Positions 19,181 to 38,329 of a stretch of 64,000 nt of DNA are shown piece by piece. This stretch comes from a bacterium (GTDB taxonomy: Bacteria > Vulcanimicrobiota > Vulcanimicrobiia > Vulcanimicrobiales > Vulcanimicrobiaceae). Location: NCBI GenBank assembly GCA_021778415.1, contig JAJYCL010000003.1, positions 62,001-126,000 of the forward strand, given 5' to 3'. The position numbers were made by a program, and so were the translations under genes. Position 1 is the first letter of the stretch. Every line of letters starts with the position of its first letter. A model generated the notes under the pieces. That model was not told the DNA's origin, did no database searches, and was given only the letters and a program-made list of their open reading frames with translations.

Positions 19181-19915
19181 GAAATCCACCATAGCCTCCA
19201 GCGTCTCCGCGGGCTTTTCTCGATGCGGCGAGTGCCCACAGCCGGGGATTTCGCATCGCGTTACGGGGCCGCGAGCAAGCTGTTGCAACCGATCGAGTTG
19301 CGTCAAGGTGCCGTAGGCATCGGCGAGTCCTTGAATCGCTAAGATTGGAACGGCGATTCGTGCGCAATCGGGCTCAATATTCATGTCCGAAAAAGCATTG
19401 GACAACCAGACGTCGTTCCAGCCATAAAAGGTGGCGTCGACATCTCGATGATGTTTGGCCATACGTTTTCGCAAATCGCCCGATTCAAACGCAACCCGTG
19501 CCGCACGAATGCCGTCAATCGATTCCGGTTCCACGAAAAGATGCGGTGCTTCAACAATGATCCGCTGCGGTTGCTGGCTTTCCGGCAGCGAACCGGCAAA
19601 GATGAGCGCGATCGTTGCACCGTCACTGTGCCCAACGAGAATCGTCTCTCGTGCGCGTAACCCATACTCATCGAAGAGTTGCGGAAGCACAACGAGCGCC
19701 TCGTCGCGCATATACTCCGCCGGTCGCGCAGACGCCAAAACCGGCGATTGTCCGTAGCCGAAACGCGAATAGACCAACGCGCTATAGCCCGTTCGCTCTG
19801 CGAGACGCTGAGGAAAATCGCGCCAAAGTCCGAGCGAACCCAGCCCTTCATGCAAAAAGACGAGGGTCGGCGCGTCTGCTTTGACTGCCGGAATGAGCCG
19901 AGATTCGAGAATCAT
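19151..19915 (-). CDS. Alpha/beta hydrolase coupled to senB
   Basis: 254 residues from the ATG at 19915, which overlaps the SenB stop as ATGA; a much longer upstream reading would run through SenB and is not credible. The oxyanion region is FLHEGLGSLGLW, the nucleophile elbow is GHSDGA, and the acid and His are probably in GLADAYG and GCGHSPH. These are standard alpha/beta hydrolase features. Translational coupling to SenB suggests a role in the selenium pathway, for example handling a selenosugar-derived intermediate or thioester/ester, but that is inference. A generic esterase is equally possible. Confidence 0.8.
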   Translation of the reverse strand: MILESRLIPAVKADAPTLVFLHEGLGSLGLWRDFPQRLAERTGYSALVYSRFGYGQSPVLASARPAEYMRDEALVVLPQLFDEYGLRARETILVGHSDGATIALIFAGSLPESQQPQRIIVEAPHLFVEPESIDGIRAARVAFESGDLRKRMAKHHRDVDATFYGWNDVWLSNAFSDMNIEPDCARIAVPILAIQGLADAYGTLTQLDRLQQLARGPVTRCEIPGCGHSPHREKPAETLEAMVDFLTVAARNAR

Positions 19916-20862
19916 TGAAGCACCATACGCCAAAGCCGACGTTCGCGCGATGGCCGCACGAGTGGTGCCAGCGCGGCAATTTCGGCCCGGAGTTTCGCTC
20001 GAAATGGTGCGTCTTCGGCGAAGCGCTTCATGACGGAAGCACAGTCGTCCGTATCCACGACATTGAAGTAGCCTGAATACGACGAGCCGAGGATACCAAC
20101 ATTTCCTGACACGCGCGAGGCCAGCACCGGAAGTCCCGCTGCAATCGCCTCGCAAACGACATTTGCTCCGCCCTCCATTCGCGAAGGAATGATCAGCGCG
20201 TCACCCATGAGGATCTGTTTGCACACATAGGCAGGTGAGTGCTCACCAATCCACGTGTACCGCGGATCGCGTCCTGCCCACGCGCGCGCGCGCCGCTCGT
20301 ACGTTGCGTCAAGCGCACCCCCGATCTGCACAACGCTGATGGCAACATCGCGCGATAGCGCCCGCAACGCTTGTGCCGGTCGCAACGAATCTTTCTCATG
20401 TCGCAAATGCCCGATGACTAAAAATCGCCACGGTTTTTTGGAGGTCGCCGACATCCGGTGACTCGCCTTGCTCATCGTTGCCGATTGAATGATCGCGACG
20501 GCTTTTGCTCGAGCAGGACGTGGGAGAAAGCGAATTCCGTCGGCTTGCAACGTCACGATGGCGTTGGCTTGCGTTAAGAGACGATGGGCTAAACGGCGAC
20601 GGGGCAAATCCCGATAGAGATCGGTTCCTGTCATAACGACGATAAGACGGCCGTTCGGGCATGCCCGTCGATAGCGAAGCGCCTCTTTGGCGCTTTTCTG
20701 GGCATGCAACGCGACCAGCGCATCGTCGTTACCGCCATCGTACGCCTCGATGAGTCGGACGCGATGGCCAAGCGACGCAAACAATCGGGCATAGCGTCGC
20801 GCCGTTACGGCATTTCCGCTGCGCTGCCCCATCCGAGGCGGGCAGAGCAAAGCTATCCTCAT
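19912..20862 (-). CDS. senB: SenB-type glycosyltransferase (probable selenosugar synthase)
   Basis: 316 residues of a GT-B glycosyltransferase. Features I associate with the SenB family (formerly a group of putative glycosyltransferases) are GNAVTARRYARLF near the N-terminus, ALHAQKSA at 51-58, TGTDLYRDLP at 78-87, VIGHLRHEKDSLRPA at 149-163 and EGGANVVCEA at 230-239. SenB joins selenophosphate to a UDP-sugar to give a selenosugar. The assignment is strengthened by an EgtB/SenA-like gene starting 17 bases away on the other strand and by SelD nearby. An ordinary glycosyltransferase would not normally occur in this company. Confidence 0.85.
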   Translation of the reverse strand: MRIALLCPPRMGQRSGNAVTARRYARLFASLGHRVRLIEAYDGGNDDALVALHAQKSAKEALRYRRACPNGRLIVVMTGTDLYRDLPRRRLAHRLLTQANAIVTLQADGIRFLPRPARAKAVAIIQSATMSKASHRMSATSKKPWRFLVIGHLRHEKDSLRPAQALRALSRDVAISVVQIGGALDATYERRARAWAGRDPRYTWIGEHSPAYVCKQILMGDALIIPSRMEGGANVVCEAIAAGLPVLASRVSGNVGILGSSYSGYFNVVDTDDCASVMKRFAEDAPFRAKLRAEIAALAPLVRPSRERRLWRMVLQ

Positions 20863-20879: not shown

Positions 20880-22133
20880 ATGCTGGATCGTGAACTGCGC
20901 GATGCCCGCGCGCGCACGTTGACCTACGTTGCCGATCTGCGCGACGATCAGTTTTTCGTGCCGCACTTGCCTATCGTCAACCCGTTGCTCTGGGAATTGG
21001 GGCATATCGGCTACTTCGCCGAATGGTGGACGTTGCGTCACTTGGGTGGCCGCGCGCCCATCCTGCACAATGCGGATGCATGGTACGATTCTGCCGCGAT
21101 CGCGCACGACGATCGATGGTCGCTGCCCCTTCCATCGCGCAGCCCAACGCTGGCCTTTCTCGATGAACAACTTGCCGGGACAATCGCCCTGTCCGACCGA
21201 CTTGCAGACGACGATCGGCTGCGCTATTTCTACGGCTTGATTCTTGGCCATGAGGATATGCATGGCGAAGCCTTGCTCTATACGCGCTCGACGCTGCACT
21301 ATACCCGCCCACATGTGCAGACCTTGCGACCCCCGGTTCGCCAATCGCAAGCGACTGGCGACGCCGCAATTCCCGGCGGTCGCTATCGCATCGGTGCATC
21401 GCGCGGCGACGGCTTTGTTTTTGACAACGAGAAATGGGCGCACGATGTCGACGTTGATGATTTTGCCATCGCCCGCGCGTGCGTAACGAATGAGGAGTAT
21501 GCCGCTTTTGTGCTCGATGGGGGCTATTCCGACGAGCGATTGTGGAGTGCCGCCGGCTGGAAATGGCGCACCTCGGAAGGCGTGACGATGCCGCTTTCTT
21601 GGCGAAACGCCGACTGCGAGCCGCTCGGCTTTGAGCGACGTGTATTTGACCAGTGGACTGCACTCGCCGGCAATGAACCGGTGACGCAGATCTGCGCCCA
21701 CGAAGCCGATGCTTTTGCCCGCTGGGCGCATCGGCGCTTGCCGACCGAAGCGGAATGGGAAATTGCGGCAAGCGGCAAGGAGCGACGTCGCTATCCCTGG
21801 GGAAATAGCACGCCGACTTCCGAGCATGGAAATCTCGATCTGTGGTATGGCGATGTTCTCGACGTACATGACTTCGCATCCGGAGATACCCCCGAAGGGG
21901 TTCGCCAAATGCTCGGCAACGTGTGGGAGTGGACCGCATCGCCGTTTATGCCGTATCCCGGTTTTTCGGTCGACCCCTACAAAGAATATTCCGCCCCGTG
22001 GTTGCGTACGCATCGGGTCTTGCGCGGCGGGGCCTGGTCGACGCGCGCTCGATTGGTTCACAATCGTTGGCGCAATTTCTATCTGCCGCATCGTCGCGAT
22101 ATTTTCACCGGGTTTCGGACCTGCGCTCGCTAG
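20880..22133 (+). CDS. senA: SenA-type enzyme (EgtB-like; probable selenoneine synthase)
   Basis: 417 residues. The N-terminal DinB-like domain supplies iron ligands: His42 in WELGHIGYFAEWW, then HEDMHGE at 124-130 (the HxxxHxE motif). The C-terminal half is a formylglycine-generating-enzyme/SUMF1 domain with PGGRYRIGAS, GNVWEWTASPF, VLRGGAWSTRARLVHN and GFRTC. EgtB makes the C-S bond of ergothioneine; SenA makes the equivalent C-Se bond from hercynine and a selenosugar. The SenB and SelD neighbours point to SenA rather than EgtB. No EgtD (hercynine synthesis) is in the window, so hercynine must be made elsewhere or imported. Confidence 0.86.
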   Translation: MLDRELRDARARTLTYVADLRDDQFFVPHLPIVNPLLWELGHIGYFAEWWTLRHLGGRAPILHNADAWYDSAAIAHDDRWSLPLPSRSPTLAFLDEQLAGTIALSDRLADDDRLRYFYGLILGHEDMHGEALLYTRSTLHYTRPHVQTLRPPVRQSQATGDAAIPGGRYRIGASRGDGFVFDNEKWAHDVDVDDFAIARACVTNEEYAAFVLDGGYSDERLWSAAGWKWRTSEGVTMPLSWRNADCEPLGFERRVFDQWTALAGNEPVTQICAHEADAFARWAHRRLPTEAEWEIAASGKERRRYPWGNSTPTSEHGNLDLWYGDVLDVHDFASGDTPEGVRQMLGNVWEWTASPFMPYPGFSVDPYKEYSAPWLRTHRVLRGGAWSTRARLVHNRWRNFYLPHRRDIFTGFRTCAR

Positions 22134-22135
22134 CG

Positions 22136-23209
22136 TCAGGTCTTAAAGCCCGGTAAAAATCCCACGATAAGACCGGCAATGATTCCCGCGGCAGCAACCG
22201 TTCCGAGTGCCGTGAGCAGTAATTTGCGCGGAAACGCACTGCGCACGATGTAGAGCGTCGGCAAACTTATTGCCGGCAATGTTACGAGCAACACCGCGGC
22301 TGCAGCCGGAGAGAGCCCGAATCCGAGAAGCGTTTGAATGATCGGTACTTCACCCGCCGTCGGAATCATAAACAGCGTTCCGCCGATGGCAAGTCCGATC
22401 ATGGTGAGAAGGCCGCCTCCGGCCAATGTGAGATGCGGGGTGAATAAAAACGCGCGCGCCGCACCCAACAGTAAAACCAGCACAATATAGCCGGGGATGA
22501 TCGTGTAGAGCTCCCACCACAAAATCTTGAGCCAATCGCGGACAAGATCCCAGCCATTTTCGCTAGGGTTTTCGATCGGCGCATCGTCGATGGTGAGATC
22601 GAGCGGTTGCGGAAACCAACGATTTGCCAACGTCGCCACGACGGCAATCAAAAGTACGCCGAAAATCAGGCGCACGAGCATGTATTGATAGCCGAGGACG
22701 GCGGTGATAAAGAGGAGGACTGCCGGATTGAGAACGGGGTTACCGAGCAGAACGGCGATGGCGGCTCCGGCCGATGCGTTCTGTTTGCGAAGGCCCACTG
22801 CCAGTGGACCGGTGCAGCATGTTCACATCATGCCGCCGAGGCTTAACGCCCCGGCGATTGCGACCGATCGATAATCACTGCGACCGAATAAGCGATGAAT
22901 CCAACGGCGCGGCACTAAGACTTGAATCGTCGCGCCGAGAATCAAGGCCAGAACCAACGCTTGCCAAATGAGATTGTAGTACGTCATTGCATACTGCAAC
23001 GCAGCCTGCCAACCCACGGCCGGAGGCGTGGCGGTGGTGCCCGAGACGACCGACGGGCCGATCGAATGATGCGAGAATGCCAAGAACGTCTTGGCGTAAT
23101 ACGGCATCCATTTCACGTAGAGCAAGCCCGCGACGAGCGTGAGGACGAAGATCGCGGTGCCCGCGATGAGGCGGCTGCGCGGTGCGCGCGCTGCGGTTGA
23201 TTCGATCAT
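22136..23209 (-). CDS. Predicted selenocysteine-containing permease (DUF318/ArsP-like), read through UGA at 22823-22825
   Basis: One frame encodes 357 residues if the UGA at 22823-22825 is read. Both halves belong to the same membrane permease family: upstream ILGATIQVLVPRRWIHRLFG, downstream GLRKQNASAGAAIAVLLGNP. At the junction the protein reads LGGMM-U-TCCTGPLAVG, where as I recall homologues have MMCTCCTAP; the Sec (residue 129) replaces the first Cys of that motif. A strong hairpin begins 13 bases after the UGA. The true terminal stop is also UGA. I chose the ATG at 23209, giving a normal first helix and leaving 84 bases to divergent selD; 23326 would overlap selD. Location suggests selenium transport, unproven. 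A pseudogene with one nonsense mutation is the alternative. Confidence 0.8.
22792..22825 (-). promoter_or_regulatory. Bacterial SECIS-like element of the permease mRNA
   Basis: Reading the minus strand, the UGA is followed by a 12-base linker and then a hairpin with 8 consecutive pairs (GGTCCACT against AGTGGGCC, one G-U pair) closing a three-base loop, GGC. The loop lies 21-23 bases after the UGA and begins with G. Distance, stem length and loop G fit the accepted pattern for bacterial selenocysteine insertion elements bound by SelB. Found by inspection, not by a covariance model. Confidence 0.72.
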
Positions 23210-23293: not shown

Positions 23294-24334
23294 GTGAGTA
23301 AAGACGATATCCTTCGCTTGACGCACCTCTCATCGTGCGCAGGTTGAGCCGGTAAACTCGAGGCTGGTGCCCTCTCGCACGTGCTGCGAGAATTGCCTGC
23401 AATCACCGATCCGCGTGTGATTGTTTCGAACGCAACGAACGATGACGCCGGCGTCATCATCCTGACGGATGATATTGCGCTCGTGCAGACCGTCGATTTT
23501 TTCACGCCTGTTGTTGACGATCCTTACTGGTACGGCGCAATCGCTGCCGCCAATGCGCTCTCCGATGTCTACGCGATGGGCGGCACACCGCTCAGTGCTC
23601 TTGCTATCGCTGCATTCCCGGAAGATCTCCCGCACGACACGATTGGAGCCATCCTGCGAGGTGGCATCGATAAAGCCAAAGAGGCGGGCATCGATATTCT
23701 CGGCGGGCATACGATTCGCGACGCGGAACCAAAATACGGACTTGCCGTGACCGGTACCGTGCATCCCAAGCGAGTCATTCGCAACGTGAGCGTTCGTGAC
23801 GGCGATATACTCTTTCTCACCAAACCCCTCGGTAGCGGCATCCTAACGACGGCTAGACGCAACGACGCCATCACGGCGGCAGAACTCGAACCGGCGATCA
23901 TTGTGATGGCGACGCTCAATCGTGCGGCTGCGCTAGCATTCGATGGCCTCGCTATTCACGCCGCCACCGATATCACCGGATTCGGTTTGCTCGGCCATCT
24001 GAGCGAAATGACAGGAAGTGCGTTTGGCGCAAGACTCCATGCCGCGAGCATTCCAATCATGAAAAGTGTGGTGGCGCTTGCCGAAACGGGGCACGTTCCC
24101 GGCGGATCGAAAACGAATTTGAGCAACGCAACGCTCAACGGCGTCACCTTTGCCGACTCGGTCTCGACCGCAATGCGCTTGGTTCTGGCCGACGCGCAAA
24201 CCAGCGGCGGTCTCCTCGTCGCCGTCCACCCAAGCGATGCCGATGCCTATGAGGCGGCCCTGCAAAAACATGGCGTCACAACGATCGCCCGCATCGGCGA
24301 GATCACAACCGGACCGGGAATTTCGGTGCTCTAG
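23294..24334 (+). CDS. selD: Selenophosphate synthetase, selenocysteine-containing (UGA at 23345-23347)
   Basis: 346 residues if translation starts at GTG 23294 and reads the UGA at 23345-23347. The N-terminus becomes LRLTHLSSCAG-U-AGKLE, so Sec18 and Lys21 occupy the places of the catalytic Cys17 and Lys20 of E. coli SelD. Without the UGA the protein would begin at GTG 23381 and lack its active site. Downstream are ATNDDAGVIIL, VDFFTPVVDD and the C-terminal DAQTSGGLLVAVH. SelD makes selenophosphate from selenide and ATP for Sec and for SenB. Sec-containing SelD is known in other bacteria. In selenoneine clusters this partner is named SenC; one SelD may serve both routes here. Confidence 0.93.
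23345..23374 (+). promoter_or_regulatory. Bacterial SECIS-like element of selD
   Basis: After the UGA there is a 12-base linker, then GAGGC pairing with GCC-C-UC (one bulged C) around the four-base loop UGGU. The loop is 18-21 bases after the UGA with G at its second position. This is weaker than the permease hairpin but has the same spacing. Found by eye only. Confidence 0.55.
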
Positions 24335-27764: not shown

Positions 27765-28010
27765 TTATTTAGACATTACGCGGCTTGACTCAACCGGCGT
27801 TCGAATTCCACGGGCGAGATGTTGCAGATCGAATACCTTGGGCGCCGCTGCGCGTGCGTTTGGGAAACTATGCTTGGCGAGAAGCTCGCACTCAAGGATT
27901 GCATTGAAGCACTCACACATCGCGTTGTCACAGCAATCTCCAACCGAACCCATCGAAGGGCGGACGGCGGCACTGTTGCAGCGCTTGCTGAAAGCAATTG
28001 ATGTATACTG
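27765..28010 (-). pseudogene. IS3 OrfB transposase, C-terminal fragment
   Basis: Carries the third catalytic region of the DDE transposase, with the usual GSVGDxxDNAMxE pattern (here GSVGDCCDNAMCECFN) where the last acidic residue expected of the DDE triad has shifted, and a frameshift before the C-terminal SPVEFERRLSQAA. It is the downstream half of the element split by IS30. Confidence 0.75.
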
Positions 28011-29474
28011 GGCGGATTCAACCAGTCGAAGCAACACTGTCTTCTTTTTGCGTTTCGATAAGGAGCTGATTAAATGCTTCTGCCGGCGTCTTCCAGCCGA
28101 GAGTTTTTCTTGATCGTGTGTTGAGCGTATGTGCTACAGCGATGATCGCGTCGGCACTATGCAAGCTGAGATCCGTTCCTTTTGGAAAATATTGTCGGAG
28201 CAGTCCGTTGGTGTTTTCATTGCTACCGCGTTGCCATGGGCTTCGCGGATCGCAGAAATACACTTTCAAGCCGGTGTCAATTCGCAGCTGAGTATGTTGT
28301 GACATTTCTGCGCCTTGATCCCATGTTAGCGATTTCCGTAAATGCTCAGGCAACTTCACAATCGTTCGTGTTATAGCATCGCGAACTGCTTCCGCCCCAT
28401 GCCCAGCAAGCGCAGGTCCGTTTTTTACGCGCAATTCAGTATAGTAGTCTTTCATTCTTGGGAGGTGTAGTAAAATGGTAAAACGCGTCGAGCGTTCTAC
28501 GAGCGTGCCAATTGCTGAGCTGCCTAAACCTAAAATGAGATCGCCTTCCCAATGACCAGGTACCGCGCGATCTCGAGCCTCCGCGGGCCTCTGGACTGAT
28601 CATGATTTGGGAATCCACAAATGATTTTCCGCGCTTTTGAGCACGGCTACGAGGTAAGCGCAAGGCTCTTCCCATGCGTAAACAAGCTGTTAGATCGCGT
28701 TTCAAAGCGCCGCGTCCCTGAATATATAGTGCTTGATAAATAGCCTCATGACTTATGCGCATTGTCGCGTCCTCGGGATAATCAAGTTTAAGGCGATGGG
28801 AAATCTGTTCCGGGCTCCAGGCTACCGCCCAACGGCGCTTCTGGCGAAAGACGGCTCGACGCCCTTTCCAAACGACGTGGGGATTTTTTACAAGTGTGTT
28901 TTGGGGACCGCTGATTTGTCCAGCAAGTCTCTCCTGAACATAAGCGTGCAAACGGACGTTTCTTACTAATTTCGCTATTTTTGGGCGACGAGCAGCGCGA
29001 TCTGCATGCCATTGCGCATTACTAGCCCGATAATCCATTGCACCGCAGCGTGTAGCTGCGTTTCGACGTAATTCGCGGGAAATTGTGGACGGCGTCCTAT
29101 CGAGCCGACGAGCAATGCTGCGAACGCCGTGGCCTTGAGCGCGCAGAACTGCAATTTCTTCTCGCTCCGCGAACGAAAGGTAACGACCCGATAGTGGCTT
29201 TGATGAGCGAGAAAAATGCTTGGGTGGCATTCCGCCAGCTTGCCGAAAGCACCTTATACCGACAGGCGCTGATATCCCGGCATCAAGTGCTGCGTTTTCG
29301 CTACTTCGGCCCGCTGTAACGGCCTTCCAGAAAATATGATAATTCTCGCGAAGTGCCGCGGGCGGACGCCCCGGCGAACGCAATGCTTTTCTTAGGATCC
29401 GCCCTCGGGCGAGTTTTTTGGATTTCAATGCAACCTCCGGTTATAAGATGTTGCTTCGACCGGTTGAATCCGCC
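28011..29474 (-). mobile_element. IS30-family element (1464 bp) with 26-bp inverted repeats and 3-bp target duplication
   Basis: The left end at 28011 reads GGCGGATTCAACCAGTCGAA on the plus strand. The right end at 29474, read on the minus strand, is GGCGGATTCAACCGGTCGAA. Over 26 bases the two differ once. The element is flanked by CTG at 28008-28010 and CTG at 29475-29477, a 3-bp duplication as expected for IS30. It encodes one transposase on the minus strand, with a single frameshift. Confidence 0.92.
28018..29428 (-). pseudogene. IS30 transposase with one frameshift
   Basis: The N-terminal part has the IS30 helix-turn-helix (RYLSFAEREEIAVLRAQGHG, then ARRLDRTPSTISRELRRN). The central part has SWSPEQISHRL-type residues (WSPEQISHRLKLDYPED). 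The C-terminal part is the DDE catalytic region from WEGDLILGLGSSAIGT to WQRGSNENTNGLLRQYFP. One extra C just after IMIS (about 28609) shifts the frame; the correct frame resumes at QRPAEARDRAVPGHWEGD. IS30 does not use programmed frameshifting, so this is an inactivating indel or a sequencing error. Confidence 0.88.
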
Positions 29475-30210
29475 CTGCGAGCCTTGGTCCGAATGGTGAA
29501 TGGCATTTTTGGGCTTATGATTGTGAATAGCCATGTCGAGGGCGCCGACGACCGACTCCGCTCTCATGTGCGTTGACATTGCCCAACCGACGACACGGCG
29601 GCTGAATACGTCGAGCACGGACGTGCATCCTTGTCCCGGACCGTCGTCTTGAAGGCCATACGGCGAATCGCTCCCGGGATTTTTCGCTCACGCATAAGCC
29701 GAGCCACGCGCTTATCACTCGCGAAGATATTCTCGTCGCGGAGATCGGCTTGAATGCGCGGACGTCCGTAGTTTTCTAGCGATGCTCGATGCAGCGCCTC
29801 GATCAGATCACCAAGTAAATATTATTCTGATGTCGTTTCAAGGGCTTACGCGTAAGCCACGCATAATAGCCGCTGGTCGAGACATCCAGCACGCGACATT
29901 GCGTAGCAACGGGCAAAAGGAACGGTGCGCTCTCACGAATTCGAAGGCTTTGACAGAATCGAATCGGTCTCGCGAGCAAACCACGCCGCGGCTTTTGACA
30001 AAATATCTCGCTCGATTTCGAGTTGCCGCACGCGTTTGCGCAAGTGCGCGACGTCTTCTTGGTCGGCGGTCGTGAGCCCGTCGCTACGATGGCCCGAGTC
30101 GAGATCGTTATCTCGTCGGCAAGTTCGTCCGCGCCTCGACCAACTCGCGCTAGCTTGACGATTTTATTCCGAAAGTCGACTGGGTAGGCCCGGGTTCGTT
30201 TTTGGGGCAT
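29475..30210 (-). pseudogene. IS3 OrfA and OrfB N-terminal half, frameshifted
   Basis: OrfA begins at ATG 30210 (MPQKRTRAYPVDFRNKIVKL) with its helix-turn-helix. It soon loses frame. OrfB reappears as QCRVLDVSTSGYYAWLTRKP and further on as VLDVFSRRVVGWAMSTHMRA with HHSDQGSQ at the insertion point. Several indels separate these, so nothing functional is made. Confidence 0.75.
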
Positions 30211-30438
30211 GAACGGACCCTTCTCCGCTAAGCAGAGAATGTCCACGGAACCGTGCCAGCTTCACGAACTGGCCGATGACCTTAACCCAAAATCAAATTA
30301 CAGAAGTTCCGGGGCTTGACTTTTGCTGTGTCGTGTTCAGAAATAGGGCGGCAGGCCGTCTGGCTTAAAAAGGAGTTCTGTACGGGGCGTACCAACGTCG
30401 TAACCCATGTAGCCTGCTCTATTCCTTGGAGGTTTCGT

Positions 30439-37977: not shown

Positions 37978-38329
37978 TGGTGGAGCTGTCGGGGAACTGC
38001 CCCCCGAGTCCGAAAAGCCTCGCCGACGCATTCTACAAGCTTAGTTTCGACTTTGACTTACTCGTACGGACGCCTCAAAACGCGGCTTACCGTTCGCAGC
38101 AGATTCTTTTTCTCGTGAGTTCGCCGAACCGCTCGACCCCACCAACCCGACTTCATTATAGGCTACGAGGTGGTTCGGGTGACCCCTCGCTGCCCATGGC
38201 TAGCTTAGTTTAAGCAGCCAGTGCGTACTGCGTGTTTGCAGTTGTTTGTTTGCGATCGTTTAAGGAGTGCTCGCAACTCCGCTTGCTAACGCCGGTCGCG
38301 GATCTCTCCGTCGAGCCTAATTCAGCCCC
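37978..38329 (-). ncRNA. ssrA: Transfer-messenger RNA
   Basis: 352 nt, one-piece tmRNA. The 5' end GGGGCTGAATTAGGCTCGAC pairs with the 3' CAGCTCC before ACCA; the seven-pair acceptor includes the G3-U70 pair that marks alanine charging. The tag frame starts at the resume codon GCA (38239-38237) and encodes ANTQYALAA then TAA (38212-38210), very like E. coli ANDENYALAA. The CCA is encoded. The T-loop, read as GGCAGTT inside CGGGG/CCCCG, is not the usual TTC type. It rescues stalled ribosomes and tags nascent chains. The IS-rich island lies immediately past its 3' end. Confidence 0.95.

Follow-up and report, generated by a model that had tools for sequence, protein, structure and literature searches.

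Does a permease gene that is interrupted by a UGA codon and lies beside the selenophosphate synthase gene selD encode a selenocysteine (Sec)-containing protein, and, if it does, what does that protein carry? The gene lies in a 64-kb stretch of bacterial DNA (64,000 nucleotides, analyzed as a whole and called here the window) from a draft genome of 2.59 Mb that is 95.6% complete. By sequence, its closest named contig belongs to Candidatus Eremiobacterota, and on this basis we place the genome in Eremiobacterota. An earlier interpretation made from the letters alone, which we call the sequence-only reading, proposed a new selenoprotein, perhaps devoted to selenium. We followed up both parts of that proposal.

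One Permease Frame with an Internal UGA

The gene (22136–23209, minus strand) runs from an ATG at 23207–23209 to a TGA stop at 22136–22138, and its sole interruption is a TGA at 22823–22825. Read through, it encodes 357 amino acids, with Sec129 in an M-M-U-T-C-C motif, and the translation around the UGA is ...SLGGMM-U-TCCTGPLAVG.... The two same-phase frames on the minus strand had been taken as a single DUF318/ArsP-like permease broken only by the UGA, and the joined protein supports both the unity and the identity: it scores 86 bits against Pfam PF03773 (ArsP_1; gathering cut-off, 32 bits). The half upstream of the UGA, by itself, reaches 25 bits and falls under the cut-off. Standard ORF calling splits the gene in two, as had been anticipated, and the downstream open ORF begins at GTG 22798. 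No NCBIfam model reached its cut-off for this protein, and the YraQ-type group to which we assign it is one that we define here.

The UGA has not simply been reassigned throughout the genome, because the permease itself ends in UGA, which thus still terminates in this organism, and because the residue in homologues is always Cys and never Trp. The open ORF from GTG 22798 does leave room for regulated termination, in which most of the product would be a truncated protein and the ORF past the UGA would be a gene of its own. We find this hardly tenable, because cutting at the UGA would lose an invariant Cys pair and half of the membrane helices, and because the Cys-containing orthologues are single proteins.

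Conservation of the UGA Column

Among 198 related genomes, 23 have a close orthologue of the permease. The column of the UGA holds TGA in 12 of these and TGC or TGT in 11, with neither another stop nor another residue, and TGA is kept down to ∼50% amino acid identity. Cys also occupies the column in all seven distant ArsP_1 homologues that we aligned, and in six it opens a C-x-C or C-x-x-C motif. The sequence-only reading had expected Cys in homologues, correctly, and had named two findings that would refute it, a column with no Cys or UGA in any homologue and several independent stops in close relatives; neither is the case. Three distant ArsP_1 matches were also flagged for in-frame TGA, but these codons proved to be terminal stops. 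Because the codon is kept in 12 orthologues and is matched by Cys codons in the others, its presence is more than chance. A pseudogene, with the UGA a plain nonsense mutation or a sequencing error, would also give the two fragments that ORF calling reports, but it is ruled out by this conservation: 12 genomes, which represent at least seven genera, share the identical TGA at this codon and keep an unbroken frame before and after it.

On a tree, the Sec state requires three changes, for example a single gain with two losses, or gains that arose separately. All 12 genomes with a TGA permease have selA, and G071, the only genome with an orthologue but no match to selA, carries the Cys form (TGA permease versus selA presence, against all other genomes, Fisher p = 0.04).

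Sec Machinery and a Second Sec Codon in selD

A genome without selA, selB, and selC would likewise have refuted the proposal, and all three are present. The tRNA-Sec gene (selC, anticodon tca) scores 68.5 bits and selA 493 bits; selB is split between the ends of contigs C8 and C59, and the larger of its two pieces shares a contig with selC. The pieces overlap in homologous but non-identical sequence, which makes an assembly edge the probable cause of the break and leaves assembly or binning doubtful at this point.

The selD gene (23294–24334, plus strand), which occupies the SenC role, is itself predicted to encode a selenoprotein. It has its own in-frame TGA at 23345–23347, within the active site sequence SSCAG-U-AGK, at the catalytic Cys position of the Escherichia coli enzyme. 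Read through this codon, the product scores 359 bits against TIGR00476, versus 331 for the truncated ORF. The adjacency of selD had been stated correctly, but given the internal TGA its start lies further upstream, at GTG 23294, than the open ORF suggests; ordinary ORF calling begins the gene too late, at 23381. At this position TGA is found in 14/14 Eremiobacterota SelD neighbors inspected, including those in which the permease has Cys, and Cys in three SelD proteins from other phyla. Two divergent genes with Sec codons, permease and selD, thus share one intergenic region.

A Hairpin and Codon Constraint after the UGA

The bacterial SECIS is a stem-loop just downstream of the UGA, with a G at the start of a loop that lies ∼16–37 nucleotides past it. 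The window has a SECIS-like hairpin at 22792–22810 of the minus strand (GGTCCACT-GGC-AGTGGGCC, read from 22810 to 22792), with 8 base pairs and a GGC loop, spanning nucleotides 13–31 after the UGA. It is present as the sequence-only reading described it and obeys the distance and loop rules, with its loop at nucleotides 21–23; 11/11 full-length TGA genes fold a stem of 8 bp whose loop begins with GG. In the TGA gene of L038, the stem sequence is altered yet still pairs, in a shifted register.

Taken alone, the folding energy of the hairpin is unremarkable (z = −0.71, with 53/200 shuffles folding equally well), and hairpins can form at the corresponding position of Cys genes too. The codon constraint after the UGA is stronger evidence. 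Among TGA genes, whose mean amino acid identity is ∼60%, synonymous-codon identity is 0.78 in the 15 codons after the UGA versus a gene mean of 0.50, and this stretch coincides with the peak for the gene. In Cys genes, the same stretch has a value of 0.56 versus a mean of 0.47, and the peaks lie elsewhere. No SECIS or other selenium-related RNA was found by Rfam in the 64-kb window at gathering thresholds. Rfam did find a tmRNA gene (37978–38329, minus strand, 124 bits) that ARAGORN missed. In one relative (G019:C9, ∼242900–244840), ∼900 extra bases interrupt the permease a few codons past the UGA, inside the hairpin, and the remaining parts resemble a broken copy.

Given the Sec/Cys column, the presence of selA, selB, tRNA-Sec, and SelD, and the codon constraint after the UGA, a Sec codon at 22823–22825 is the best reading of these sequences, although protein-level proof is absent.

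The Sec Motif in a Predicted Structure

Across ten diverse members of the group, the invariant residues are M127-M128-[U/C]129-x-C131-C132, P135, N157, N161-P162, P283-T284-A285, and E287, so that Sec129 stands for the first Cys of an M-M-C-x-C-C motif. An AlphaFold2 model built from the ten sequences has medium confidence (pLDDT 75, pTM 0.76). In it, Sec129 falls in a short break between helices 113–126 and 130–142, and comparable breaks are predicted at 280–283 and 311–315. Broken helices often house the substrate site of transporters. From the break at Sec129 in this model, we infer that the U/C-x-C-C motif may bind or relay a chalcogen species; at a mean pLDDT of 75, only limited claims can be made about the position of the motif. 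Neither a sequence search nor Foldseek found a structural relative of the permease in the PDB.

A Selenoneine Cluster in Eremiobacterota

On the other side of the permease lie senA, for selenoneine synthase (20880–22133, plus strand; NF041186, 483 bits against a cut-off of 420), and senB, for selenosugar synthase (19912–20862, minus strand; TIGR04348, 314 bits against a cut-off of 300). With its neighbors so named by NCBIfam, the window holds a selenoneine cluster, in the order senB(−) senA(+) permease(−) selD(+). Of the 20 other orthologue neighborhoods that we extracted, 13 contain all four genes (permease, senA, senB, and selD), and several of the remainder are cut by contig ends; at least two further arrangements exist, senA-selD-permease and senA-permease-selD. 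Over the 198 genomes, a strong SenB match is found in 21/23 genomes with the permease versus 10/175 others, without correction for phylogeny. In-frame TGA flags in the SenB of two genomes were rejected, as they fall in the start region or at the terminal stop. Downstream of the cluster, overlapping open frames at 27765–30246 resemble integrase and transposase fragments and suggest a decayed insertion sequence region.

Cys Relatives and Selenium Genes in Other Phyla

A genome scan found Cys-containing relatives of the permease in Bacillota and Pseudomonadota. In Cohnella pontilimi and a Paenibacillaceae genome, the permease gene and selD-mnmH point away from each other. The Dyella permease gene is immediately next to selA, in a group of selD, selB, and selA that adjoins formate dehydrogenase genes. 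The MnmH, SelA, and SelB identities at these loci were confirmed. On a Ligilactobacillus salivarius plasmid (L108, 4442–7068), a YraQ-type permease lies by genes for YeeE/YedE, TusA, a rhodanese, and D-proline reductase, and the PrdB there has an in-frame UGA (AG-U-GTC).

All eight distant named genomes with the permease that were tested have selD. In order-wide surveys, selD is present in 77/78 Paenibacillales genomes with the permease (E < 1e-40; the order of Cohnella, 300 genomes) versus 69/222 without it, and the two genes lie within 5 kb in 49 genomes. In the order of Dyella (200 genomes), the figures are 9/9 versus 26/191, with all nine within 5 kb. Pooled over these 500 genomes, selD accompanies the permease in 86/87 cases and lies no more than 5 kb from it in 58. 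The Fisher tests of co-occurrence ignore phylogeny; the recurrent adjacency of permease and selD in differing arrangements does not depend on that caveat. The linkage is not universal, as an Enterobacter relative sits among non-selenium genes, and members in Gallionella, Methylobacter, and Bhargavaea have no recognized selenium gene within 6 kb, although these genomes do have selD. What had been offered as a guess, that the permease serves selenium, thus gains weight from the synteny and co-occurrence seen across three phyla; selenium transport itself remains an inference.

Proposed Function

We consider it probable, though well short of settled, that this is a Sec-decoded YraQ-type permease dedicated to selenium. 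We observed the frame, the column of Sec or Cys, the genes for Sec insertion, the synteny, and the co-occurrence, but we infer the insertion of Sec in the cell, the substrate, the direction of transport, and the role of the motif. In the proposed mechanism, SelB and tRNA-Sec would decode the UGA as Sec, directed by the hairpin just downstream, to give a polytopic inner membrane permease whose U/C-x-C-C site would handle the chalcogen. A reduced or thiol-bound selenium species would then cross the membrane to or from the pathway of SelD, SenB, and SenA, encoded alongside, or that of MnmH or SelA. Because the Cys forms share the linkage to selenium genes, the linkage seems to be a property of the transported compound or its pathway rather than a by-product of Sec. 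Because the permease is found with selenoneine, selenouridine, and Sec genes and near proline reductase, its substrate should be one common to all of these loci, probably selenide, selenite, or thiol-bound selenium rather than selenoneine itself.

The direction of transport is harder to assign. We slightly favor import over export, but nothing is decisive, and the named relatives in the superfamily are exporters. The permease could instead export selenide, selenite, or methylated selenium, guarding the cell against an excess. Efflux has precedent here, as the known or predicted relatives ArsP, SO_0444, and SaoE are named as efflux proteins, which leaves a detoxifying exporter possible; an export role has likewise been suggested for YedE, another membrane protein linked to SelD (PMC5322559). 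An exporter is nevertheless on the unlikely side, because the gene adjoins mnmH-selD in organisms for which trace amounts of selenium suffice and because, in the loci examined, it is tied to genes for the use of selenium and not to known detoxification genes.

A second alternative accepts the Sec residue but not the selenium substrate. In this case, the permease would export a toxic metal or metalloid (arsenic, copper/zinc, or mercury) or thiol-reactive compounds, and its proximity to selenium genes would reflect only its dependence on Sec. The superfamily does take its name from an arsenical permease, and the nearest NCBIfam models, although weak, are SO_0444 Cu/Zn efflux (NF033936) and SaoE efflux (NF040736). 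We think this improbable. The Cys versions, which are independent of selenium, still lie by selD, mnmH, or selA-selB and co-occur with selD, and the NCBIfam scores are far under the cut-offs (46–73 versus 300 and 53–86 versus 325; the window permease itself has 56 and 61 bits, respectively, and meets neither).

If the dedicated selenium permease is real, selenium supply, SelD, and the transporter would form a loop in Eremiobacterota, as making both the permease and SelD needs selenium. More broadly, the permease family tracks selD in three phyla (Eremiobacterota, Bacillota, and Pseudomonadota), and one of its members, yraQ, is a conserved E. coli gene whose function is unknown. We incline, if only narrowly, to the view that YraQ-type permeases, E. 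coli YraQ among them, are a widespread and overlooked family of dedicated selenium transporters, of which the Eremiobacterota form carries Sec at the substrate site.

Comparison with Known Systems

The nearest known Sec permease is that of the SO_0444 family, whose Sec form (WP_014809615.1, motif UxC) is listed among the known prokaryotic selenoproteins in a 2026 inventory (PMC13188914). It belongs to the same superfamily, with U-x-C where the window permease has U-T-C-C, although it is not established that the two share a column, and it differs in that no link to selenium is described. That inventory of 119 prokaryotic selenoprotein families also includes a Sec form of YeeE/YedE and parts of a Sao transporter, but no YraQ-type permease was found in the parts of it consulted (PMC13188914). 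The original claim of a probable new selenoprotein is qualified in that the superfamily already has a listed Sec member. The permease still represents a further selenoprotein family, one whose gene would be broken in two by ordinary gene callers.

According to that review, a specific, high-affinity system for selenium transport has yet to be identified in any prokaryote (PMC13188914). An earlier comparative-genomic survey of genes linked to SelD put forward YedE as a transporter, and the word "permease" is absent from its report (PMC5322559). YedE/YeeE (PF04143) is similar to the window permease in being a predicted selenium/sulfur transporter with an invariant Cys, encoded beside selenium genes and with a listed Sec form (PMC5322559, PMC13188914). 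It differs in being a separate protein family, one that neighbors the YraQ-type permease in L. salivarius. We found no selenium-linked COG0701/UPF0718/DUF318 permease in the literature searched, although a passing mention in the original selenoneine paper is not excluded. Compared with the known senA-senB-senC cluster, the Eremiobacterota cluster is alike in that senA and senB pass the NCBIfam cut-offs and selD takes the senC role; it differs in the added permease and in the Sec predicted in both permease and SelD.

Finally, E. coli YraQ resembles the window permease over its full length (46% identity over 87% of the protein) and shares PF03773 and the MMCTCC motif, but it has Cys where the window permease has Sec. 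The gene is present in 5394/5426 complete E. coli genomes, and no function for YraQ was found in the literature searched. We rate the result as a new selenoprotein family that also gives an orphan permease of wide conservation a functional assignment open to testing: because the family includes this conserved gene, the question of selenium transport can be tested directly in E. coli.
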